DNA from: Candidatus Aegiribacteria sp.
Lineage (GTDB): Bacteria; Fermentibacterota; Fermentibacteria; Fermentibacterales; JCC-6
Assembly: GCA_023138735.1 (NCBI GenBank)
Contig: JAGLOY010000110.1
Location: 1-39,769 of the forward strand
Length of the DNA stretch: 39,769 nt
Direction of reading: 5' to 3'
This document shows positions 8-29,391 of this stretch, piece by piece (position 1 is the stretch's first letter; each line of letters starts with the position of its first letter). The notes under the pieces are model-generated. The model did no database searches. It was not told the DNA's origin and worked only from the letters and a program-made list of their open reading frames with translations. The position numbers and the translations under genes are program-made.

Positions 8-82
8 GACCCCATCGTCTAGCGGTTAGGACACTGGCCTTTCACGCCGGCAACACGGGTTCGATCCCCGTTGGGGTCGCCA
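8..82 (+). tRNA. tRNA-Glu (TTC), CCA encoded
   Basis: The cloverleaf can be read directly. Acceptor GACCCCA (8-14) pairs with TGGGGTC (72-78), the anticodon loop CTTTCAC carries TTC, the T-loop is GTTCGAT, the discriminator is G79, and CCA is encoded at 80-82. No terminator follows: a convergent recombinase gene starts its overlap immediately. The last 10 to 20 bases (63-83) recur at 29.2, 29.3, 31.5 and 34.9 kb, which is what an integration target in a tRNA 3' end would leave behind. Confidence 0.95.
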
Positions 83-1589
83 TACTACATGTTTCGGTCG
101 GAAATATGTCGTAAATGCTTACCTGATCAGGTCTTGAGGGAGTTCGAACCCAGAGGGTTCCTGTGAACAGTACTGCTGAGGGGAATAATGCTGTTTGTAG
201 CTGTATTTTCTTCTTAAGAGAGCCTTTCAACCAAAGATCATCACATAATAAGAGTACACTTCCAGCATGCTGGATTATGGGCCGGATATTATTCGTGATC
301 TCGTTTTTATTATCCAGAGTTATTTGAATTTCCAATATTCCTTCCGCTAATCTATCCATCTCCTCAACATACGTCTCTTTATCAATCAAGGAGTCATAGA
401 TGAAAGCCTGACGCAGCTTAACCTTGTTGGCTTCGAGCAACTGGATCTTATCAATAAGCTCCTGAATCTTCTGTCTGTTTCTTTCCTTATCCACTGCCAC
501 TGCTTCTATGATTGTATCATGGAGATGAGAGATGAATTCCCTCGAAGGTTTCAGCCTCTTAAGCAGGTCCAGAAATTCACCCTCAAGCACCTCTTTTCTG
601 ATACTGCCAAAACTGCACTTGCTAGATCTGCACCTGTAATACGGATACTTTTTTGTTTTACCCTTGGACCAGCATGCTGTAAGAGGTAAGCCACATTTAC
701 CACACTTAACGAATCCTCTCAAGGGGAAATCAGGATGATGCTGCATTTGCCGACAGAGTTTATGATTACGGCGTTTATTCAGAACCAACTGTACTCTCTT
801 AAATACCTCATCAGTTACAATTGGCTCAAAGCTGCTACGAACATACCCCTTCTCCTCACTCACCCGGATCCATCCAGCATACGTTCTGTTCTCCAGCATA
901 CTCCTTAGCGACTGAGTGGACAGTGGAGCTCCTTTAAGTGTTACAAGACCTAAATTTGTTACATGCCGTAGAACGTCCGTTTGTGTGTGCTTACCGGTAG
1001 CCATCATCTGGAATGCGACCTTCATCAAAGGTGCACGCTCGGGATCATGGACCGCTATAGAATGAGTACCCTTACGTTTCTGTTTAATGAATCCGAGTGG
1101 AGGTCTATGTACGATTCTACCTAAGGATCTGGCGTGCTGCATACTGAGGCTTGTCCGCTGAGAAATAAGGTCTGACTCAAATTCAGATACTGACGCGAGG
1201 ATCCCTTCCATAAGCCTTGTTATCGGAGAATCGCCATCCAGGGGTTCCGTAGCTGACATAATGTTAATGTCATACTTGCGTAAGTGGACCTGCAAGGCGA
1301 AGTATGAGTTCTTATTCCTGCTTAACCTGTCAATCTTGTAAATAACTATTGCATCGACAGTACGCCTGCGGTGCCTACAAAAAGTAAGCATTTCCTGCAG
1401 TAGAGGCCGCTTAGTAGACCGACCCGACTCACCTCTCTCGATGAAAACATTACTGACATGGAACTGTCTTTTCTCGCAGAAGGCTCTACAACATTTCTCT
1501 TGAGCAGCCAGGCTAATACCCTCTTCAGCCTGCTCAACTGTCGAAACCCTACAGTAGATTACCGCACTGCCGTTTTCCTTAACAGACAC
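42..1589 (-). CDS. Large serine recombinase (site-specific integrase type)
   Basis: Large serine recombinases cut and rejoin DNA through a 5'-phosphoserine link, usually to integrate or excise an element. The 515-residue protein has an N-terminal resolvase domain with catalytic Ser16 in YCRVS and the DRLSR motif near residue 87. A recombinase domain follows (about 165-290), then a zinc ribbon (C296, C299, C320, C325) and a coiled-coil segment (about 360-430). The start is GTG, with AGGATG upstream. The last ~14 residues are read from the antisense strand of tRNA-Glu, because the stop lies at 42-44 inside the tRNA. That tail probably arose when integration joined the gene end to the tRNA. A second large serine recombinase lies 39 bp upstream, and the two may act together, as CcrA and CcrB do in SCC elements. 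The family is certain; the target site is inferred. Confidence 0.93.
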   Translation of the reverse strand: MSVKENGSAVIYCRVSTVEQAEEGISLAAQEKCCRAFCEKRQFHVSNVFIERGESGRSTKRPLLQEMLTFCRHRRRTVDAIVIYKIDRLSRNKNSYFALQVHLRKYDINIMSATEPLDGDSPITRLMEGILASVSEFESDLISQRTSLSMQHARSLGRIVHRPPLGFIKQKRKGTHSIAVHDPERAPLMKVAFQMMATGKHTQTDVLRHVTNLGLVTLKGAPLSTQSLRSMLENRTYAGWIRVSEEKGYVRSSFEPIVTDEVFKRVQLVLNKRRNHKLCRQMQHHPDFPLRGFVKCGKCGLPLTACWSKGKTKKYPYYRCRSSKCSFGSIRKEVLEGEFLDLLKRLKPSREFISHLHDTIIEAVAVDKERNRQKIQELIDKIQLLEANKVKLRQAFIYDSLIDKETYVEEMDRLAEGILEIQITLDNKNEITNNIRPIIQHAGSVLLLCDDLWLKGSLKKKIQLQTALFPSAVLFTGTLWVRTPSRPDQVSIYDIFPTETCSMATPTGIEPVLPA

Positions 1590-1628
1590 CTAATAACATC
1601 CTAAACAACCTCGTATCCTTGCGCTGAC

Positions 1629-3269
1629 TCACTCGTCTATGTTTCCATGCTCCCAAGAGTCACTTTGTTTTCTGTCGGAACTCAAGAAGCTGGCAAACTC
1701 TTTGAGAGAAAAAACTGGAGATTCAGACGTAAATGTATGACTGCGTTCAGCCGAAAAGATCAAGTTTGAATCTGGAATCATAAATCCTATTTCCATGTCT
1801 AACCGCAACCCATCGGGCTCGGGGAAAAGAACCGATTGTAACCTTTGCCGTTCTTCAAGGCTGGATAGAAGCCATATCCGGGAAAGATTCTCAAGAATCA
1901 ACTGCGCAAATTCCAGAAGGTTATCCTTATCATGAATACGACTTTCCAGGCTATTCAGGTATTTTTTTAACTCGGCTTCTTCAGTATCTATTCGATCCAA
2001 ATCTCTCTGGCATAACTCTTCAGGAATAGTGTCAATGTGCAGCAACTTATACTCAGTAGCCGTTCTCTGCTCTAAGAGTTTACTCAGTCTCATCTTAACA
2101 GTCTTAACAGTTTTGCTATATGTCTTCGCTTTTTCTTTTTGCAGCTCCAGGACGGCTGCAAGTATTAACTGATATCTTATGTTCTTGTACCCCAAACCAT
2201 TCAGATAGAAAGCGAAAACAGCATGTAGCAGGGAAGGAGGAATTCGTACAGGATCACACATTTTCTTTGTCTGACAGTGATAATACGGATAAGACACTTT
2301 TGACATACTTCCTGTTAAGTTACCACATTTCACACACTTAAGAAACCTTCGAAGAGGATACCGCCAAGAATCATCCTTACGCATCTTCTTCTTTCGTGTA
2401 ACGCCACCAACTCTCTTTGATACGACAGTAAAGACCTCAGCACTGATCAAAGGCTCCCACTTTCCTTCTACCGGGTCCTCTTTATCTTCAAGAAACTGAT
2501 AGCCTGCATATATAGGATTCTGCAACATATCCTTGAGAGTTTTCATGGATAGCTTATTGTTAAACCTATTTCTCAATCCACTGGTATTTATGTATTTGAG
2601 AATTTCATTCAGTGAATAGCCTCCTTCGTACACTTTATGGAAAGCCCACTGAACCAAAGGAGCCTTATCGGGGTCTTTTGCAAGAGATCCATGATCATCA
2701 GGCGACCTTGCGGTTATGTAGCCTATTGGAGCACTGCCCATGTAGTAGCCGTGTGATCTAGCTTCATACATTGTACTATAAGTTCTTTCAGAACCTAGCT
2801 CCCTGCTGTAATTGGCTGAAACCCAGGAGTCACCTTCGACCTTTCGACCTATAGCCGTACTTGTATCCAAATCAATATGGATATCCTTAACTTCAACCCC
2901 TGCATCTCTTAATTTCCCGATATGAGCAAATACTGTTGTAAGATCTGCAGAGTACCTATCACGGTCTCTAACAATGATCTTAGATACTTTTTCATGTTCC
3001 AGGCAGTACTTATACATTCTCATATATTCAGGACGTTTAACAGATTCTCTAGCAGAAATGCCAAGCTCTATAAAGATCTTATCAACATGTAGCCCCTCAT
3101 CAGCACAGTACTTTTTACATAGTCTCTCCTGAGCTTCCAAACCAAATCCTTTTTTCACCTGAACCGGGGATGATACCCTGCAGTAAATCACAGCAACTTT
3201 TGGATCTCGAGTGCTTTTCTTCTTCTTGGATTTCGACGACTTGGGTCTGGGAATCTTGGGAATGGTCAT
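1629..3269 (-). CDS. Large serine recombinase, second copy (diverged)
   Basis: A second large serine recombinase of about 546 residues, clearly different in sequence from its neighbour. It has catalytic Ser in YCRVSS, a conserved RDRDRYS stretch where DRLSR is usual, a recombinase domain, and a zinc-ribbon region with CVKCG followed by YYHC. A Leu/Lys-rich coiled coil precedes the C terminus. A start at 3296 is possible, but ATG at 3269 overlaps the stop of the upstream 83-codon ORF as ATGA, so coupled translation from 3269 is preferred. A basic stretch (SKSKKKKS) lies just before the catalytic domain. The order small ORF, recombinase, recombinase, tRNA suggests one integration module. Whether both enzymes are needed, or one is directionality-specific, cannot be seen here. 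Confidence 0.92.
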   Translation of the reverse strand: MTIPKIPRPKSSKSKKKKSTRDPKVAVIYCRVSSPVQVKKGFGLEAQERLCKKYCADEGLHVDKIFIELGISARESVKRPEYMRMYKYCLEHEKVSKIIVRDRDRYSADLTTVFAHIGKLRDAGVEVKDIHIDLDTSTAIGRKVEGDSWVSANYSRELGSERTYSTMYEARSHGYYMGSAPIGYITARSPDDHGSLAKDPDKAPLVQWAFHKVYEGGYSLNEILKYINTSGLRNRFNNKLSMKTLKDMLQNPIYAGYQFLEDKEDPVEGKWEPLISAEVFTVVSKRVGGVTRKKKMRKDDSWRYPLRRFLKCVKCGNLTGSMSKVSYPYYHCQTKKMCDPVRIPPSLLHAVFAFYLNGLGYKNIRYQLILAAVLELQKEKAKTYSKTVKTVKMRLSKLLEQRTATEYKLLHIDTIPEELCQRDLDRIDTEEAELKKYLNSLESRIHDKDNLLEFAQLILENLSRIWLLSSLEERQRLQSVLFPEPDGLRLDMEIGFMIPDSNLIFSAERSHTFTSESPVFSLKEFASFLSSDRKQSDSWEHGNIDE

Positions 3270-3517
3270 TGATAGATCCATTCGAAAAGCTCGCATCTCT
3301 CAAGAAGCTCTTCCTCATCCTGCAACGATATAATGAAATCAGCAATGGACTTAGCATGAGCCTGCATATCTTGAACTTGTTCTGGAGTGAGTTTTTCGTG
3401 GTGCCTGATCAGCTCTGTCGCTTTCTCGAACGGGTCCTTAATCCTCTCGATCTCGACAGGAAAAATAATCCCGCACAATCTCAGACGGTGCAGCAGTTCT
3501 TCGAAGATCTCTTCCAT
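3266..3517 (-). CDS. Small helical protein coupled to the recombinase
   Basis: This 83-residue acidic, mostly helical protein (MEEIFEELLHRL at its start) has no motif I recognise. An AGGGTGG ribosome site lies a few bases before the ATG. Its TGA overlaps the ATG of the downstream recombinase in an ATGA junction, so the two are probably translationally coupled. Position and size would suit an accessory or directionality factor for the recombinases, but that is inference from context only. Confidence 0.7.
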   Translation of the reverse strand: MEEIFEELLHRLRLCGIIFPVEIERIKDPFEKATELIRHHEKLTPEQVQDMQAHAKSIADFIISLQDEEELLERCELFEWIYQ

Positions 3518-14101: not shown

Positions 14102-16999
14102 ATGCCAAGAAGTAGCGAAGCTGATATCCATTTCGAATTCTATAGACATCTACAGAATGCTATCGATGTACTGCTTGAGTCTGAGGATACCCACTACTCA
14201 GAAGCCATACCTGAGCTGAATGTAAATGGTGGTTTTGCCGATATTGTTATTATGGATGGGAGAACTCGTCCATTTGTGGTTATTGAAGCAAAAAGACCTT
14301 CTGAAGTGGGAATGAATAGAAATCTTGATCCCTACTCGCCCTTGGTAATTCGTCAGGCATTTCGATACGCTGCTGAGTTAGGTGCAAAGTACTTCGCTAC
14401 TTATAATGGTGCATATCTTATATTGTTTAGAACGTTTGAAGAGGGAGTACCATTATTAGAGAGAATGAGTCGCTCATATCATATAAATGATATTAGAGCA
14501 TTCGCTTCCGAATTTCTTAGAGAGATTATACTGCTTGATGATGATATATTAACTTGGGACCCTCATCATGAAGCATTTATCAAACGCCTAAGAACATACC
14601 ATTCAAGACTATCCTTCCATTTTCAGGAAGCAATAAGAGAAAGACTTGATGATTATGACTTCAAGCATGATTTTGAGTGTTGGGCGATAGAACAAGGTTG
14701 GAAAAAAGATCTTCAGCGTAACACCCGAAAGGTAATAGACAGATATCGGAGTCAAGCAGCATATATTCTTATGAACAAACTTGTCTTCTATAAGCTACTG
14801 GAAGACTCAGATGCTTATGAGGTGCCTGAAATATGCATGGATGATCTTGCTGATTCCACCGCAAGACGCAGGATATTCGATTGGATAATCACCAATATTG
14901 ATTTTGAAGCTATTTACCAGCAAGATCCAATATTCGATCAACTTCCACTAAATGAAACTTCACTATTAGAAACCAAAGAACTGCTAGATGAGTTAAATCA
15001 CTATGATCTTTCGAGTTTTGACCATGATGTGATCGGTCAAATTTACCAGGGCATTATTCCAGCTGATGAGCGTCATGATTTAGGCCAGTACTATACGCCA
15101 CCTGAAATCGTCAGTTTAATCAATAAGCTATGCATTACAGGCAGAGATGAACATGTTCTTGACCCAGCTTGCGGAAGTGGAGGTTTCCTGGTTGACGCTT
15201 ATGCGAGACTGAAAGAACTGAATCCAGGTTTTAGTCATCAAGCTATTCTTGAACAAATACATGGTATTGATATTAATCGATTTCCGGCACACTTAACAGC
15301 AATTAACCTTGCTTTAAGAAACTTAAACTCGGCTACACACACTGTGAATATTGAAGTTGGAGATTTCTTCAATGTAGATGCATTACAAGGAAGATTCTAT
15401 ACGCAACACGCAGGTGTTTCCGGGGAAGACGCTAGAATAACTTCCTTCCCTCAGAACTTCGATGCAATTGTTGGTAATCCACCCTATATACGACAGGAGC
15501 AAATTGCCAATAAGAGGCTTGCCAGAAACCATTTAGGCAACATGAATGTTGATCTCAATAGGCGCAGTGACATATATTGTTACTTTTTCACCCATGCATC
15601 TGAGTTCCTTAATGAAGGTGGTAGGATTGGGTTTCTTACTTCAAGTCGATGGCTGAATGTAGAATATGGGGAATTCTTACAGGACTTCTTTCTGGATAAT
15701 TTTCGCATAATTTCGATTATCAACTTCAGCAGACAAGTCTTTGATATTGCTCTGATTGGAACATGTGTTACGATTCTAGAAAAATGTGCATCTGCATCTA
15801 CACGTGACGAGAATAAAGTAGTATTTCTAGAAGTACATGAACCACTATCATCTCAACAAGTTGTTGACTTAATAAATACAGACCATGAAATAGGTCTTCT
15901 TGAAGATGAATCTAGTTATAGAATTCTAACTCAACCTCAATGTGATTTACGTGGAATAAGGAAATGGAATAGGTTTTTTTGTGCGCCGAATGTTTATTGG
16001 GAGCTATACCAACACCCACAAATAGTGCAGTTATCCGACGCAGCTATTGTGAAGTATGGCCTTAAAACAGGCGCAAATGGTTTTTTCTATTTCCGTAGTC
16101 GCTCTGAATATGAAGATTTGGGTATTGATTCCCAATTTATAAAACCATTGCTAAAGCATGAAAGACAAGCAACAAGCATACTTCTTTCAGATGATACAAA
16201 TACTTGGTATGTACTAGATTTGCATGCATTTGTAGAGGAGGTTGCTTCATCAGTCCCAGAAGATCTTACTCTTGCATGTAAGAATGAACTGGCCCAGCAA
16301 GGGTATAATGGCCTTCTTGAGTACATTAACATTGGGGAGATACAGGGAGTTCATGATCGAAGTAGTGTGAAGAATAGAAGAGTGTGGTTCGATTTGGGAG
16401 ATTTTGAACGCCCTCCACTCACTATGTCTAAAGAATACTGGCGTGACACATGGGTTCTTTTCAATGAGCAGGAGTGGGCTGTTGATAATAGAATGTATGG
16501 TATCTGGCCTCATGATGATATTGATGTCTATGTGCTTGGAGGAATTCTAAATTCCTCCTTTACGCTGCTTATGCGAGAAATGCATGGGCGTACAGATCAA
16601 GGTCAGGGGCTTAATAGAAATACAGTAATGGTATATGAAGCTGAGAGATTGCCTATTATTGATCCACAGACACTATCTATGAATGACAAAGAGAATATTA
16701 AGAATGCCTTCACAAGAATCCTTATGCAGCAAAGCTCAATACCAGAGGAAGAGTTCACGATCCTCCGAAGGGATTTGGATATTGCTGTGTTATCATCTAT
16801 AGAGAAGTCGGAACATGTTGATAGACTCATAGAAGCAGTTGCACATCTTGTGGAGTTAAGAGAAATCGGCTCAGGGCAGTACACTGGACGGATGATTGAT
16901 CCGGTGCATGAAGACAATGTTAGAATCCAGTTACGTGGAGCACATCGAATACCCTGTAGAGAAGCGGAGGGAGAACAGCTTGGATTCAGTTGGCCATGA
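14102..16999 (+). CDS. Single-chain restriction-modification enzyme (type IIG-like)
   Basis: The 965-residue enzyme joins a nuclease and an adenine-N6 methyltransferase. The N-terminal PD-(D/E)xK nuclease has Asp47 (GFADIVI) and Glu62-x-Lys64 (VVIEAKRP), similar to the HsdR N-terminal nuclease. A helical linker follows. The methylase carries GQYYTP (328-333), motif I DPACGSGG (354-361) and catalytic NPPY (459-462). The C-terminal ~350 residues resemble TaqI/Eco57I-type target-recognition domains. There is no helicase region and no adjacent hsdS, so cutting and methylation should share one recognition domain. GAGGA precedes the ATG. It is the only large plus-strand gene in the defence region. 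It lies close to two orphan HsdR tails but encodes its own nuclease. Confidence 0.9.
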   Translation: MPRSSEADIHFEFYRHLQNAIDVLLESEDTHYSEAIPELNVNGGFADIVIMDGRTRPFVVIEAKRPSEVGMNRNLDPYSPLVIRQAFRYAAELGAKYFATYNGAYLILFRTFEEGVPLLERMSRSYHINDIRAFASEFLREIILLDDDILTWDPHHEAFIKRLRTYHSRLSFHFQEAIRERLDDYDFKHDFECWAIEQGWKKDLQRNTRKVIDRYRSQAAYILMNKLVFYKLLEDSDAYEVPEICMDDLADSTARRRIFDWIITNIDFEAIYQQDPIFDQLPLNETSLLETKELLDELNHYDLSSFDHDVIGQIYQGIIPADERHDLGQYYTPPEIVSLINKLCITGRDEHVLDPACGSGGFLVDAYARLKELNPGFSHQAILEQIHGIDINRFPAHLTAINLALRNLNSATHTVNIEVGDFFNVDALQGRFYTQHAGVSGEDARITSFPQNFDAIVGNPPYIRQEQIANKRLARNHLGNMNVDLNRRSDIYCYFFTHASEFLNEGGRIGFLTSSRWLNVEYGEFLQDFFLDNFRIISIINFSRQVFDIALIGTCVTILEKCASASTRDENKVVFLEVHEPLSSQQVVDLINTDHEIGLLEDESSYRILTQPQCDLRGIRKWNRFFCAPNVYWELYQHPQIVQLSDAAIVKYGLKTGANGFFYFRSRSEYEDLGIDSQFIKPLLKHERQATSILLSDDTNTWYVLDLHAFVEEVASSVPEDLTLACKNELAQQGYNGLLEYINIGEIQGVHDRSSVKNRRVWFDLGDFERPPLTMSKEYWRDTWVLFNEQEWAVDNRMYGIWPHDDIDVYVLGGILNSSFTLLMREMHGRTDQGQGLNRNTVMVYEAERLPIIDPQTLSMNDKENIKNAFTRILMQQSSIPEEEFTILRRDLDIAVLSSIEKSEHVDRLIEAVAHLVELREIGSGQYTGRMIDPVHEDNVRIQLRGAHRIPCREAEGEQLGFSWP

Positions 17000-23685: not shown

Positions 23686-24308
23686 AAGAGCTCCTTTCTG
23701 TTTGTGTTCAATATGTTTATAACATATTTTTGCTATTATTAGCACACTAACATGTAGAGTTCCAGTAATACTCTCGTGTTTATAATTTGATTGATATATT
23801 GCTAGACTTCTTAGAGCTATTCGAATACTTTCATGAATGCCCTGAGATCAAAGAACGCAGCTTTGTAGGATATCGGCCCCAAGATATTGTACGCCATATT
23901 TTGTTATCTCCGGCTTTCTCGTGGTCAATTTTTAATACTCATTTTTCAACCCAGAGCGTATTAACAAAAACACTGAACTACATATTATACTATCCTTATA
24001 GCGAAAGGAATAAAACGACAACCTGTTTTCGATACAAGATTTGCATTTGGGCAATTTGGAGGGAGGAATTCAGAGGATTTTATTGGGTTTCACTACAACA
24101 ACAAGAACTACAACTGCTGGTTATTTCGATATTGACGCTCTAGAGGAGATAGACTTACTTACATTCACTCTTGTTCATGACCCGATCCTCTCAACTAATA
24201 AGGTCTCCGGTAATCCCGGGGCGGTTCAGAACTCGCTGGACTATGATTGCTGTATTCGTTCTCATTCTAAATTCTCCAAGAACCTAACGTCGCGGCTTAG
24301 GTAAACTG
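23686..24308. other. Gene-poor spacer before the cassette array
   Basis: Two overlapping plus-strand frames (23787-24143, 24041-24304) lack ribosome sites and resemble no family, so I do not call them genes. A degraded gene is possible. At 24282-24302 a palindrome (ACCTAA, 9 bases, TTAGGT) contains the 7-mer ACCTAAC, and therefore GTTAGGT on the minus strand, an integron R'-type core. Confidence 0.4.
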
Positions 24309-25403
24309 TCAAGAGTCACTTCCAGCACTTTGGTCGCTTGATTCTCCACGGAAGTCAGCAATGATCCTTGCAGCTTCACCGCTGAAGTTGAGCGATTGAC
24401 GGAACTTATCATCCTCGCACGCCAAGGCTATCGCAAGATGCGCAAGGGCACTCTGCGCGTAGGTGTTGGTCTTGTATTTGCTCCAAGCCTTCTTCGTCCT
24501 TGCCAGTAGTGCGTGGATGTCACCAATTGTGCGCCATCTTGATATGTTGATTTCCTCGAACAACAAATGTGTGTGATGTTTACTCATGGAGTATTTCAGA
24601 TCGGGAAACTCCTTTGAGAGATAGATCCGCAAGGAATCACGGTTCAGCTCCCTATAAAGAAGACCTACTTGCTTCTGGGATAGAGGATGACGCCTCCTAC
24701 TTGCCTTCAGATCACACCACTCTGTTCCGGTAATAAGTGGTGGTGGCAATGGCCTGTGCATGTGCAACTCCCGAACAGCTTTATTAGACTTCCAGATATT
24801 CAGCCGAGCACAAAACACCCGCAGATTCTCGGGATTCGCATCAGGTTCGATCTGTGCATTTTTCATTATGCTGAATGGAATTAAGTGATCAATATGCAGC
24901 CTGCGTGATCCCAATTGTTGGTTGTTACAAAACGGACACGAATCAACCTGGCATCTGTAGTCCGCACGTTCCAGCAATTCGCGCCTGAGCGCTCGCGTTA
25001 CACGCCTCCTAATCGATTGCCACGGAGGTACAATCTCACCACTAACGAATTCCATGTTGTCAACGCCAATGAAGTACCAGCGAACCTTTGCACCTATTAC
25101 TCCCGCGAGTGCCATCTTCTCCAGAGCAAAGAAAAACTGGTTCTGTGTGAGATTAAGTTCCCTCTTCATCCTGTCCGCCTCAAGATCGATAATCGCTTCT
25201 GGGTTCTCGAGTAAGAAACCAGCAAGCTTATCGTAGAGAGAGGAACGGAACTCATCCTGTTCAAAGTATTCATAAAGTAGATGCGGGTTACGCACAAAGT
25301 ACGATTGCACCACGATATTTGCTCCAGGAGATTTCTGAGTTCTTATCCGTTGCTCAAAGGAATCCCATTGCTTATTCTGCCAGTATGTTTCGAAAGTCGT
25401 CAT
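24309..25403 (-). CDS. HNH endonuclease with N-terminal helical domain
   Basis: The 364-residue protein has a treble-clef HNH nuclease. The zinc ligands are C151, C156, C159 and a later Cys198, and the active region is LHIDHLIPFS (His170, His173) followed by NPENLRVFC. The N-terminal ~140 residues are helical, and the C-terminal ~150 are helical with many basic residues. ATG 25403 is preferred, since the open frame upstream runs through an attC-like site. In the cassette model this is the last gene of the array in transcription order. HNH proteins in such settings are often restriction or antiphage nucleases; no specific system is recognised. Confidence 0.8.
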   Translation of the reverse strand: MTTFETYWQNKQWDSFEQRIRTQKSPGANIVVQSYFVRNPHLLYEYFEQDEFRSSLYDKLAGFLLENPEAIIDLEADRMKRELNLTQNQFFFALEKMALAGVIGAKVRWYFIGVDNMEFVSGEIVPPWQSIRRRVTRALRRELLERADYRCQVDSCPFCNNQQLGSRRLHIDHLIPFSIMKNAQIEPDANPENLRVFCARLNIWKSNKAVRELHMHRPLPPPLITGTEWCDLKASRRRHPLSQKQVGLLYRELNRDSLRIYLSKEFPDLKYSMSKHHTHLLFEEINISRWRTIGDIHALLARTKKAWSKYKTNTYAQSALAHLAIALACEDDKFRQSLNFSGEAARIIADFRGESSDQSAGSDS

Positions 25404-25411
25404 AGATATGC

Positions 25412-25528
25412 ACCATACTTCTGCATGCAAGCCGCGAGTGAAAGATGATGCAGATGTGCCGCGTCGAAGGCTGCTTTCGTGCAAACTCCGTGACACTCGA
25501 TTCCGTCGGCTGCATGCACTTGTTAGGG
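25412..25528 (-). repeat. Integron attC-like site (degenerate)
   Basis: On the minus strand an outer CCCTAAC (25528-25522) precedes a long stem: TGCATGCAAGCCG (25422-25434) pairs with CGGCTGCATGCA (25507-25518), with one unpaired A. A second stem, GAGTG with CACTC, follows. Extra-helical bases are typical of attC. The expected GTTRRRY at the far end is only GTATGGT, so this site is probably mutated. Confidence 0.55.
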
Positions 25529-25537
25529 ATTACGATT

Positions 25538-25948
25538 CTACTCATCCTTTACTTTAAAGCTGGCGATCCGGTTATTGAGTTTGACCACTAGATGCCACGC
25601 GTGTACGCTCATGACGCACCCTATAATCACCATTGCACTGAAAAGGGTTTTGACCGAGGAGTAATGACAGAACGCTCCTAGACCATCATTCCAAAAGGAC
25701 CGCGTGGCGGAAGCAAACAATTGCACTAGATCAGGAAGAAGTACAACTGCAAATACCGTGGAGACCAATGCGAGCGGTACAGCTTTCGACCTTTTTGCTG
25801 CTTCCATATCGCGGATAGTGCTGGTGCGATCTGGTCTGTGAATGGCTTTCTCTCTTCGAAGCTCAGTCTGAATATCCCCAAACCAAGATCCGTAGAATAG
25901 GCCTATAACGGCGAAGAAGAGACTGGCTGCTGACATTGTGTCACTCAT
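25538..25948 (-). CDS. Small membrane protein
   Basis: A 136-residue protein with three hydrophobic segments: near the N terminus (AASLFFAVIGLFYGSWF), in the middle (VPLALVSTVFAVVLLPDLVQ) and near the C terminus (LFSAMVIIGCVMSVHAWHLV). A charged loop (IQTELRREKAIHRPDR) lies between the first two. The start at 25948 has GGAGG six bases upstream and overlaps the 194-residue ORF by 8 bp, so the two are translated together. No family is recognised. Confidence 0.65.
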   Translation of the reverse strand: MSDTMSAASLFFAVIGLFYGSWFGDIQTELRREKAIHRPDRTSTIRDMEAAKRSKAVPLALVSTVFAVVLLPDLVQLFASATRSFWNDGLGAFCHYSSVKTLFSAMVIIGCVMSVHAWHLVVKLNNRIASFKVKDE

Positions 25949-26525
25949 CTTCATCCTCCAGCTTCTTCGCCACACTGAAGCGCTCACAGAGTCTTAGATA
26001 TGAGGATGGCTGGATGACGTAGGTGGACACGCTGCCCTTCCTTTTTCGGATAGAGGGAAGGTCAGTATCGATCTCCGCTAGCTCACGATTCAATTCATCA
26101 ACAAGATTCAGATTGTGAACTGCAACAGCCACTAAATCACCGGTGTCACTTGGCTGTGCACTGTCCAACAGCACCCTCAGCGTCTCGTCTATCTCAGCTT
26201 TAAGAGAATACTGGTACTTGGACATTACAGCACGGATTAGCGAGCGGCTTGCAGTGGCCGTGACTTGAAATAGCTTGCATACAGTTTGCTCATCGGGAAG
26301 CATGGCTCCAAAGGCGTGGTGCATTAGCAGATACAATCTATATTCAAGCAGATCTGATCCGCGAGTAAAAACTCTCTGACCGAGGAACATACTGACGAAT
26401 TCCTCCAGCGCTGCCTCCGCATAAGGCTCTAACTCAGTGGGTAGTTCTTCCTGGTCACAGTTGAGTATGCGGGCCAGTTCGCGCTTCTCGTTTGTGTTGA
26501 GTCGTAGGGTTGTTTTTATGTCCAT
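25941..26525 (-). CDS. Hypothetical 194-residue protein of a cassette pair
   Basis: The product is an acidic soluble protein (DIKTTLRLNTNEKRELARIL near the start) with a helical middle and a basic patch IRKRKGS, ending in LEDEDE. GGAGG lies five bases before ATG 26525. It overlaps the membrane-protein gene by 8 bp. Both lie between two attC-like sites, so they would form one two-gene cassette. A toxin-antitoxin or sensor-effector pair is possible, but no motif decides it. Confidence 0.6.
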   Translation of the reverse strand: MDIKTTLRLNTNEKRELARILNCDQEELPTELEPYAEAALEEFVSMFLGQRVFTRGSDLLEYRLYLLMHHAFGAMLPDEQTVCKLFQVTATASRSLIRAVMSKYQYSLKAEIDETLRVLLDSAQPSDTGDLVAVAVHNLNLVDELNRELAEIDTDLPSIRKRKGSVSTYVIQPSSYLRLCERFSVAKKLEDEDE

Positions 26526-26704
26526 TTCATCCTCCAAAGTAGTAGACAACGTTAATCCATCAAAGTAGCACGGAATCTGCGAGGAGCTTAATCCGATGCT
26601 ACTCGCGATCTATGTCAATGTGAACAATCAGAACTGCCATCTGGCCATTGAGTTATTTACCCTATATGGTTCATCAAATGGCATGGTTATGTTTATTTCT
26701 TTCC

Positions 26705-26785
26705 GCCTAACGTTTACATAACCAGCACAGATATTACTTTGACTCATAGCTTTACATTTGTGGCTGGTTCATGCATTTGTTAGAT
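26705..26785 (-). repeat. Integron attC site
   Basis: An 81-bp imperfect palindrome. On the minus strand it begins with ATCTAAC (26785-26779, fits RYYYAAC) and ends with GTTAGGC (26711-26705, fits GTTRRRY). The internal arms (ACATAACCAGCACA against TGTGGCTGGTTCATG) pair except for single unpaired bases on one strand, the hallmark of attC. The stop of the next gene lies 3 bp away. Confidence 0.85.
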
Positions 26786-26787
26786 AT

Positions 26788-27453
26788 CTAATTATCTGAT
26801 CTCAACCCATCAATTTCCTTATCAATATCTTTAACTGATGAAGACATCTCATCGGCGAATCCTTCTTCTTGAATAAGGAAAAGTGCTTCTTGATACTGGT
26901 CTATTGCTTTCTTGTTGTTTCCTTTGAACTTTGCCTTTCGTGCTGCTTCTGTGAAACCATCTAATTTTACAGTGAAAATCATTCTCCTTAGGTTTTCCTC
27001 TATTTCCGTATCAATATCCGAGTCTTGACTCTCATCCAATATCTCTCTCACTTTGACTAGACCCTGCGAGAGAGCGGAAGTCTTGGTTTTCGGAGTAGAA
27101 GCTGCCTCTGATTTAGATATTGCCTTATCTGCAAATATCTTTGCTTCCTCAAGTACAATCTGATCTCTGTATTGTATGAATTCACCGATGATTTCTGAAG
27201 GGCTTGGTGATATGGTGCCAATACCCTTTTTCTCATAAGTTAGCAAGTGTTTAGCATTTTCCAATACAAGATCACACCTGGACAATCTTGTTTTTAAGGT
27301 CTTGCCCTCTTCAGCAAGTTTCATGCTTTCTGTGAGTATTCTGACGCGTGGTTTCGCATCATGATAAACCTTTTGCGAGCATATTCTACATAATCCATTT
27401 TCATCAACAGACATGAGAAAACCCTTCTTGCCGCAGCTTCTACATTTAGCCAT
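26788..27453 (-). CDS. Zinc-ribbon protein with coiled coil
   Basis: A 221-residue protein. Its N-terminal zinc ribbon uses C4, C7, C22 and C25 (CRSCG, then CRIC). A long charged helical region follows, with a tetratricopeptide-like end (AARKAKFKGNNKKAIDQYQE). ATG 27453 is preferred because it has AGGAGG upstream; the ATG at 27480 lies in the attC site. The stop abuts the next attC (3 bp), as is usual for integron cassettes. The function is unknown. Confidence 0.75.
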   Translation of the reverse strand: MAKCRSCGKKGFLMSVDENGLCRICSQKVYHDAKPRVRILTESMKLAEEGKTLKTRLSRCDLVLENAKHLLTYEKKGIGTISPSPSEIIGEFIQYRDQIVLEEAKIFADKAISKSEAASTPKTKTSALSQGLVKVREILDESQDSDIDTEIEENLRRMIFTVKLDGFTEAARKAKFKGNNKKAIDQYQEALFLIQEEGFADEMSSSVKDIDKEIDGLRSDN

Positions 27454-27471
27454 TATCCCTCCTAATAGTCT

Positions 27472-27553
27472 ATCTAACATTCTAAATCAGCAGACTGCGA
27501 AAACCTGACTCTCAATACACCAGACGCAGTGCTGCTGGATTTTGTTGTTAGGA
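27472..27553 (-). repeat. Integron attC site
   Basis: An 82-bp imperfect palindrome. GTTAGAT (27478-27472 on the minus strand) fits GTTRRRY exactly; the other end is TCCTAAC (27553-27547). Arms AATCAGCAG and ACTGCG pair with CGCAGTGCTGCTGGATT, leaving two unpaired extra bases on one strand. Confidence 0.85.
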
Positions 27554-27757
27554 GTATATTTATGTATTAGTATAGCCAAATTTTACCTATCATACTTTAT
27601 ACTCATTATCTATTAACTCTATTTTATAATTTCCTTATTTCCTGGTTATAATATTAGTATTATGCATTACTATTATTCTTTATCCTTTCTACAATATCCC
27701 TATCATTTTTCTCTGTCCAAAGTGAGAAAACGATATTCTGCTTTGTCTCCATTTGGC

Positions 27758-28705
27758 TTAGTTTGCAATCTCTGCCAAAGCTCCGAGAGCAGCGCCCCAG
27801 CCTGGTGCGAAAACTTGTACAATCCCTGAAACCGCTTGTATTCCAGCTGTAAACTGTGCTTGTTGCATCTCAGCTCTACGCTGCTCGATTAGTTCTGGAC
27901 TTACAATAACAGCAAGACCGTCAAGGACTGGATCATAGGCCAAGATAATCTGTGATGGCCGAACACCTATTGCGAATCCATTGAAATCATTAAAATTCTC
28001 AGGTTGAGGATAAAAGGAGAGCAGTTCTTCACCGAGCACTACCTGAAACACTGGATCGTCTAGTCCGAACTCAATATCTGCATTACTCTGGTTATAGAAT
28101 GTGCTACTTACTGCGCCATTCCACCAGCTCACAGGGCTTCCTGATGCGTCAGCCAGTTCCAATGAAATCCTTGTTGCTGGATCTCCCATGTAGTCAGCCT
28201 CTATTTCAACGGTACAACTCCACCGATCCCCGGTACCACTGAAGTTTGCCCTATATACCTTCGTGATTTGCATCTCTTCCAAGCGATTAGGAGAACCGGA
28301 AACACCATCTACTTCGAATGAGATGATAGTACCATTATTCATGCGGTATGTATTTGTGCCTATCTCTAGTTCAGAAACAGGTATTGTAATCTCATCCACG
28401 AAGTCGTGGTCACTCATATCATTATCGATAACATTGAAGCTGATTGAGTTTTGAAGAAATTGGTTCAATCCGACTGGCCATGTGTTACTGCTCACATTCT
28501 CATCGTAATCAGATGTCCATACGATAGAACCTTGCACGATAATATTAACGAACATATCGGGTATGCTATCCAACACATCCCACTTTCTCCCATTTGGTTT
28601 TTTTTCTGGAGGATCAGATACGGATATTGAGGTAATACAGTAATCACCAGCTGGCAAAGCCCATGATATACCGATTAGGACAAGTAGCAAATATAGGATT
28701 CTAAT
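27758..28705 (-). CDS. Exported protein, cassette-borne
   Basis: The product has about 316 residues with a clear signal peptide if translation starts at ATT (28705): RILYLLLVLIGISWALPA. GGAGGAG lies just upstream of that codon. The first standard start codon, TTG at 28690, is 19 bases from it and would cut into the hydrophobic core. The mature part contains a C2-like segment (WDVLDSIPDMFVNIIVQGS, then ending DHDFVDEITIPVSEL) and a Gln/Ala-rich hydrophobic C terminus. It lies in a cassette bounded by attC sites at 28900 and 27472, with ~200 bp between stop and attC. The function is unknown. Confidence 0.65.
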   Translation of the reverse strand: MRILYLLLVLIGISWALPAGDYCITSISVSDPPEKKPNGRKWDVLDSIPDMFVNIIVQGSIVWTSDYDENVSSNTWPVGLNQFLQNSISFNVIDNDMSDHDFVDEITIPVSELEIGTNTYRMNNGTIISFEVDGVSGSPNRLEEMQITKVYRANFSGTGDRWSCTVEIEADYMGDPATRISLELADASGSPVSWWNGAVSSTFYNQSNADIEFGLDDPVFQVVLGEELLSFYPQPENFNDFNGFAIGVRPSQIILAYDPVLDGLAVIVSPELIEQRRAEMQQAQFTAGIQAVSGIVQVFAPGWGAALGALAEIAN

Positions 28706-28899
28706 TATACTCCTCCTTTAATTAAACATGATACAAGATTATCCAGCAGCAATATTATTGCTTGTCTTACTTATCGAAATCGAGCTGTTCACTCCTAACA
28801 ATGATTATATGGATTCTACATTTCCTCGTACTTCATTAATTCGAAAACTATATATCCTCACTTGAAGATTAATCAAGTTTAGTAATCATACCATAGATA

Positions 28900-28983
28900 G
28901 CTTAACACGTCTACATAACACCCTAATACACCTGGGTTAGCAGAATCTACAATATTCTTGATTATATTAGTTACGTGTTAAGA
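28900..28983 (-). repeat. Integron attC site (array end)
   Basis: An 84-bp element bounded by a perfect 10-bp inverted repeat (CTTAACACGT, ACGTGTTAAG). On the minus strand it ends with GTTAAGC (28906-28900), which fits GTTRRRY; the other end is TCTTAAC. No cassette gene lies before it, so its own cassette seems to have been lost at the island boundary. Confidence 0.7.
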
Positions 28984-29050: not shown

Positions 29051-29071
29051 TTCTAACCTGTACGGTTAGAA
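29051..29071. repeat. 21-bp perfect palindrome
   Basis: TTCTAACC, five bases, GGTTAGAA. It carries CTAAC/GTTAG cores like integron sites but is far too short for attC. A second 21-bp palindrome of the same kind lies at 24282-24302, on the other side of the cassettes. Confidence 0.6.
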
Positions 29072-29215
29072 CACACATAGGGGTTACAAGGGTTGTGATC
29101 ACGACGTTTAGCACAAACAGCTCAGAATCACCCTTATAGCTTCATTTGTGGAATCCACCTACTGCAGCGACATTCCTTAACCACTCAATGAAATAGTTCG
29201 AACTTTTTGATACAA
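29069..29215 (+). repeat. ~145-bp diverged repeat, copy 1
   Basis: The region from ACACACATAGGGGTT to just before GGGTCGCCAT matches 34720-34860 in order (TATAGCTTCATTTGT, TTAACCACTC, GAACTTTTTGA), about 75% by eye. Both copies stop exactly at a copy of the tRNA-Glu 3' end, so they look like the right ends of two related integrated elements. Confidence 0.75.
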
Positions 29216-29263
29216 GGGTCGCCATTAAAACTGACACAGCCCTTCGTGGGCTGTTTCTGTTTT
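29216..29263 (+). repeat. tRNA-Glu tail copy 1 with terminator
   Basis: GGGTCGCCAT (29216-29225) is identical to tRNA positions 74-83. The hairpin ACAGCCC/GGGCTGT (29236-29254) plus a T-rich tail follows. It is read as an attachment-site remnant (attR candidate). Confidence 0.7.
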
Positions 29264-29289
29264 AGATGCCATTCATGGGCAAGAACCCG

Positions 29290-29330
29290 TAGGGTGAGTT
29301 TACCCTGAGCGAACATAGTGAGTCGAAGGG
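29290..29330. repeat. REP-like intergenic element
   Basis: GTAGGGTGAGTTTACCCTGA and then GTGAGTCGAAGGG form an imperfect palindromic unit of a kind common between genes in many bacteria. A related unit lies at 31579-31625, again beside a tRNA-tail copy. Confidence 0.5.
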
Positions 29331-29384
29331 ATCCCCGTTGGGGTTGCCACAATGCTATAAACGACCTTTTTCGGGTCGTTTTTT
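29330..29384 (+). repeat. tRNA-Glu tail copy 2 with terminator
   Basis: Bases 29330-29349 match tRNA 63-82 at 19 of 20 positions (T for C at 29345), including the T-arm end and CCA. They are followed by AATGCTATAA and the terminator AACGACC/GGGTCGTT with a T-run (29360-29384). It is probably the original tRNA downstream sequence copied by an integration. Confidence 0.75.
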
Positions 29385-29391
29385 GCATTAG

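Follow-up and report, generated by a model that had tools for sequence, protein, structure and literature searches.

Clusters of attC sites lacking an integrase (CALINs) are common, and both their origin and their activity are debated. When such an array lies far from any integrase, is it a stranded group of cassettes or a platform that can still receive them? The array analyzed here raises this question. It lies in a stretch of 39.8 kb, hereafter the window, which is a whole contig (C14) of a fragmented metagenome-assembled genome (MAG) of 3.22 Mb (192 contigs, 91% complete). The initial annotation described four attC sites separating minus-strand genes, in a CALIN-like array without an integrase and within a defence island. 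From the sequence, we consider it quite probable that the array is instead an integron platform, with a Pc-like promoter, an attI site and about three cassettes but no intI of its own, and that these cassettes were gained by IntI-type recombination.

We searched for attC sites with a covariance model built from 15 sites of contigs C169, C127 and C101 of the same genome, excluding the window sequence. In the hairpin of these reference sites 93% of the cells are paired, and both sides have changed in 12 of the 18 pairs. This search, of the kind that the initial annotation had called for, identified two of the four proposed sites, attC2 and attC3 (Table 1), and no other match in the window better than E 1. 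Both sites lie 3' of minus-strand genes, as first described, and when the bottom strand folds, their extra-helical bases fall on its 3' arm. The arrays beside the integrases of this genome contain two subtypes of attC, both of which occur in the window too, and attC2 shares 92% identity over 77 bp with a site in the array next to the intact intI of C169. The two other proposals fared less well. The hairpin at 25412-25528, located 10 bp past a stop codon, is not detected by the model and is a doubtful or decayed attC1. The one at 28900-28983 was rejected as an attC: its best match scores 10 bits (E 5), for 28913-28976 on the opposite strand. It is a palindrome within a conserved module upstream of attI. 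A stricter pattern, demanding 6/7 complementarity between R boxes, gave zero sites in the window, since the two R boxes of an attC (R'' and R') come from different cassettes; it was relaxed, and the covariance model was then used. Across the genome the same model finds about 44 sites, and 27 of the 41 genomes searched, this one included, have matches. The DNA of relatives that is homologous to the window array consists of attC sites, without genes.

The array as first read lacked two components, an attI site and a Pc-like promoter in front of it. We built a sequence-only model from 13 attI sites linked to intI, again excluding the window, and obtained a match of 21.3 bits (E 1.3e-5) at the edge of the first cassette. 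When the whole genome (3.2 Mb) was searched, this site ranked third (E 0.001) among the top seven, which are in C127, C164, the window, C101, C139, C169 and C179, before scores drop from 18.1 to 16.3 bits. The window has a single copy of the 10-base core AATCATTGTT; this core also precedes the first cassette beside intI on C169, C127 and C101, and is found beside intI in other Fermentibacteria. In all the platforms checked (8/8), a sigma-70-like pair of boxes (TTGAnn and -10) stops 39-42 bp short of the attI core. The promoter score in the window (9/12) is common in the background, and the evidence is the constant spacing.

The ends of the cassettes allow a test of closure. In a circular cassette R' (the cassette start) and R'' (the cassette end) are joined, so the two have to be complementary. 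This closure is 7/7 at each of 12 junctions (12/12) in the arrays of C169 and C127. In the window, the R' of attC3 (GTTAGAT) closes with the R'' of attC2 (ATCTAAC) at 7/7 positions, and the R' of attC2 (GTTAGGC) with the R'' of the doubtful attC1 (CCCTAAC) at 6/7. For the first cassette, the R'' of attC3 (TCCTAAC) predicts its reverse complement at the cassette start. The plus strand of the window has a single TCCTAAC, at 28793, a short way upstream of the first gene. There the match is longer than the R box: GTTAGGAGT at attI is complementary to ACTCCTAAC at the beginning of attC3 at 9/9 positions. The first cassette thus starts exactly at the G^TT of attI.

Table 1. Features of the array, listed from the promoter-attI module to the distal end (positions in the window)
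Feature	Position	Strand	Observations
Conserved promoter-attI module	28797..28963	-	Includes the palindrome first called a fourth attC
Pc-like promoter	28847..28876	-	TTGATT-N18-TATAGT, faces the cassettes; -10 ends 40 bp before attI core
attI	28797..28828	-	Core TATAATCATTGTT; crossover G^TT 28799/28798; sequence-only model
Cassette 1, first after attI (exported-protein gene + attC)	27478..28798	-	End closure 9/9
ORF, 310 aa	27758..28690	-	N-terminal hydrophobic segment; no family found
attC3, subtype B	27472..27553	-	59.9 bits, E 2.8e-11, covariance model
Cassette 2 (zinc-ribbon gene + attC)	26711..27477	-	End closure 7/7
ORF, 230 aa	26788..27480	-	N-terminal Cys zinc ribbon, then helical repeats
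attC2, subtype A	26705..26785	-	71.1 bits, E 8.6e-14, covariance model
Cassette 3 (two overlapping genes)	25418..26710	-	End closure 6/7; distal end uncertain
Soluble protein, 202 aa	25941..26549	-	25% identity over 173 aa to Pseudoalteromonas homologue
Small multi-TM protein	25538..25987	-	Hydropathy; overlaps the 202 aa gene
Hairpin, doubtful or decayed attC1	25412..25528	-	Strong fold; R' GTATGGT; bulge on opposite (wrong) arm
HNH nuclease-like ORF, 364 aa	24309..25403	-	HNH E 0.0058, below Pfam cut-off
Possible collapsed attC, distal end	24282..24303	-	ACCTAAG-CCGCGAC-GTTAGGT, sequence only

As we reconstruct it, the minus strand would carry, after attI, an exported-protein cassette, a zinc-ribbon cassette and a two-gene cassette, bounded by attC sites. 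Cassettes would have entered at attI by IntI-type recombination and would be expressed from Pc, which is predicted to be active. The zinc-ribbon ORF more likely begins at about 27453 (MAKCRSCGKKG) than at the annotated start. We found no close copy of the cassette genes of the window in their own genome or in relatives. A distantly related pair with the layout of cassette 3, a soluble protein and an overlapping membrane partner, is present on a replicon of Pseudoalteromonas donghaensis (NZ_CP032091.1; L236:3866-4808). Since that pair lies between two attC-like sites (recognized as attC by eye only), it too appears to be a cassette, in a different phylum. The predicted fold of the 202 aa protein had a mean pLDDT of 42.8 and was not used. 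At its distal end the array is decayed, and the HNH gene there may be a last cassette that has decayed too; searches for plasmid or viral relatives of this gene found none.

A search of the window by tblastn with both intact integrases of the genome gave nothing significant, in line with the initial statement that it encodes no integron integrase. The gap is a local one, since elsewhere the genome encodes two intact TIGR02249 integrases (357.7 bits on C169 and 353.2 bits on C127, for a cut-off of 265) and a third, broken one on C101. Both intact integrases carry HxxR, LGH, Tyr and the IntI-specific insertion, and their closest relatives are in MAGs named Candidatus Aegiribacteria, Fermentibacteria and Sabulitectum, which places the organism in the Fermentibacteria. 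They also have an N-terminal extension of ~90 aa before the TIGR02249 domain (L015:12618-13838, L016:14927-16117), which is common to the IntI of several other phyla.

The window is not the only place in this genome where attI is found without a functional neighbouring intI. C139 keeps 187 bp of the intI-attI region, 80% identical to C127, with an unrelated gene and a terminator abutting the point where the intI start codon would be. C179 keeps 232 bp (84% identical to C101), where only the first codons of intI are left, and C164 has a stub of intI restricted to its first codons. The 5' part of the intI region is still present on these three contigs, from which we conclude that intI loss occurs in this genome. 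In addition, an attI core that closes 8/8 is found on C117, and a decayed copy on C134. Separately, C159 (L139:1-16000) contains a large integrase-less array of at least 14 attC that begins at the contig edge; one of its cassettes matches the first cassette of the C101 attI with 85% identity over 639 bp.

Modules of the window type also occur in two other genomes. The loci on G004:C176 and G006:C107 are orthologous (their flanks are 82% identical in one block of 2.8 kb and 89% identical in another of 2.8 kb) and both have the promoter-attI module but no intI. The window module is 87.5% identical to the former over 168 bp and 84% to the latter over 162 bp, and this homology ends at the GTT of attI. 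From there the two contigs have differing first cassettes. The one of G004:C176 encodes an acetyltransferase that is also found in the C139 array, and the one of G006:C107 encodes what reads from its sequence as a RelE-like toxin-antitoxin pair, with an attC that closes 7/7. The search with TIGR02249 found a full-length integrase in G006, while the 67%-complete G004 had no strong match among the matches listed.

Did the platform of the window ever have an integrase? The module is 73% identical over about 105 bp to the promoter-leader of a secreted-protein family (L184:9385-9490; L185, L220-L222), a resemblance that includes ATCATTGTT, and is less extensively similar to the regions linked to intI (86% over 28-29 bp). 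Because of this resemblance, the origin of the window attI may differ from intI loss. It could be that IntI acted off-target, in an attG-type insertion, on a host promoter-leader with an attI-like sequence (the leader reads GAATATCATTGTTACGG), so that the platform never had an integrase. The total absence of the platform from G014:C262, which has the same flanking genes as G006, is in line with this scenario. However, the attI model, outer box included, ranks the window site among the attI linked to intI, and the loss of intI is documented on C139, C164 and C179; we thus regard the off-target scenario as rather unlikely. The platform may have arisen by intI loss or by the entry of cassettes into a host promoter with an attI-like site, and the two routes yield an identical present structure.

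A second alternative is that the array is a bare CALIN, i.e., a set of attC sites that was translocated or left behind, immobile and without attI. The lack of intI in the 39.8 kb, the presence of only two attC confirmed by the model and the weak distal end all fit this description, but an attI with exact cassette closure does not, and makes it improbable. The term itself depends on the definition. In IntegronFinder, a CALIN is a cluster of attC lacking an integrase, and attI is detected only in class 1 (PMC9024848). Since attI sites outside class 1 are missed, attI platforms without intI are filed as CALIN. The window, with at least two attC and no adjoining integrase, is a CALIN in this sense; it is not one if the term means an array alone, with no attI expected, a usage outside the software definition. 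Relative to a complete integron, it has the attC fold and an attI with insertion at G^TT, and lacks intI beside attI. The initial qualification as CALIN-like was therefore right on the missing neighbouring integrase and too weak in other respects, since the retention of attI and of a Pc-like promoter makes the array an integron platform. Finally, assembly could have cut an ordinary complete integron in two, leaving intI beyond a contig break. Contigs of this MAG do end within arrays (inside an attC for C127, inside a cassette for C164), but on the intI side the window attI is followed by about 11 kb of continuous sequence with other genes and no IntI match, which makes this reading very improbable.

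If the array is an integron platform, as we favor, an integrase encoded on C169 or C127 could act on it in trans, and the array could still be changing. Two observations reveal recombination at attI without a nearby intI: the cassette start at the attI of C164 is identical to one in the C127 array at 82/83 bases, from the G of GTT, and the platforms of G004 and G006 have differing first cassettes. The simplest reading of these sequences is that IntI acted in trans at these other orphan platforms. IntI was shown to work in trans in assays where the integrase and attI are on different plasmids (PMC9668308). As the cassette genes of the window have no close copies, the case for exchange in trans rests on the other platforms, and we infer by extension that the window attI may be a substrate too. 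We would give even chances to a broader view, in which this genome has a distributed integron: promoter-attI platforms without integrase (the window, C139, C164, C179 and C117) would be scattered over the chromosome, and one or two IntI copies would act on them in trans. If so, one integrase would place and express cassettes at many loci.

These elements can be compared with known systems. The window locus resembles sedentary chromosomal integrons in the structure of attC and its extra-helical bases, the G^TT of attI, the candidate Pc facing the cassettes and the mostly unfamiliar cassette genes; complete copies of such integrons exist in the same genome, but the window differs from them by lacking intI. 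It shares with CALIN an attC array without a nearby integrase (PMC9024848), and differs in that it keeps attI and a Pc-like promoter. In Xanthomonas, intI was also truncated or lost while arrays persisted, with further CALIN elsewhere in the genome (PMC12444791). However, those derive from one ancestral locus at ilvD, whereas here there are several dispersed attI platforms in a single genome, two with an intact intI. As in attG insertions, cassettes are found at G^TT outside an intact integron, but the window site matches the consensus of attI linked to intI over about 30 bp. Integrons, CALIN and the loss of intI are already known (PMC9024848, PMC12444791), and what we newly describe is a variant in which a genome with intact IntI also has several promoter-attI platforms that lack an integrase. 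Our literature searches found nothing relevant on orphan or solo attI, and no report of integrons in Fermentibacteria. These results extend integrons to this clade, where a phylum-wide attI consensus can be read from the copies linked to integrases. With such a consensus, where integrase-less arrays recombine, and whether they do, becomes testable.

The surroundings of the array give little weight to the idea of a defence island. Among ten window proteins, PADLOC found one type IIG-like restriction-modification gene (14102-16999), 8 kb off the array, and weak HNH scores. The HNH gene was rejected as a defence system, given its weak scores for REase_II and PtuB, and there are no recognized defence systems among the cassette contents. 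The type IIG-like gene adjoins serine recombinases and a tRNA. The region 1-23600, with a tRNA at the contig edge, large serine recombinases (42-3296) and RadC-like, DUF3799, DUF932 and type IIG-like restriction-modification genes, is probably an integrated mobile element adjoining the array. Just past the distal end of the array (23787-24304) there are plus-strand ORF fragments with a short match to G037, a possible pseudogene. On the other side, the intergenic region at 29065-29390 contains hairpins and has many copies in this genome and in its relatives.
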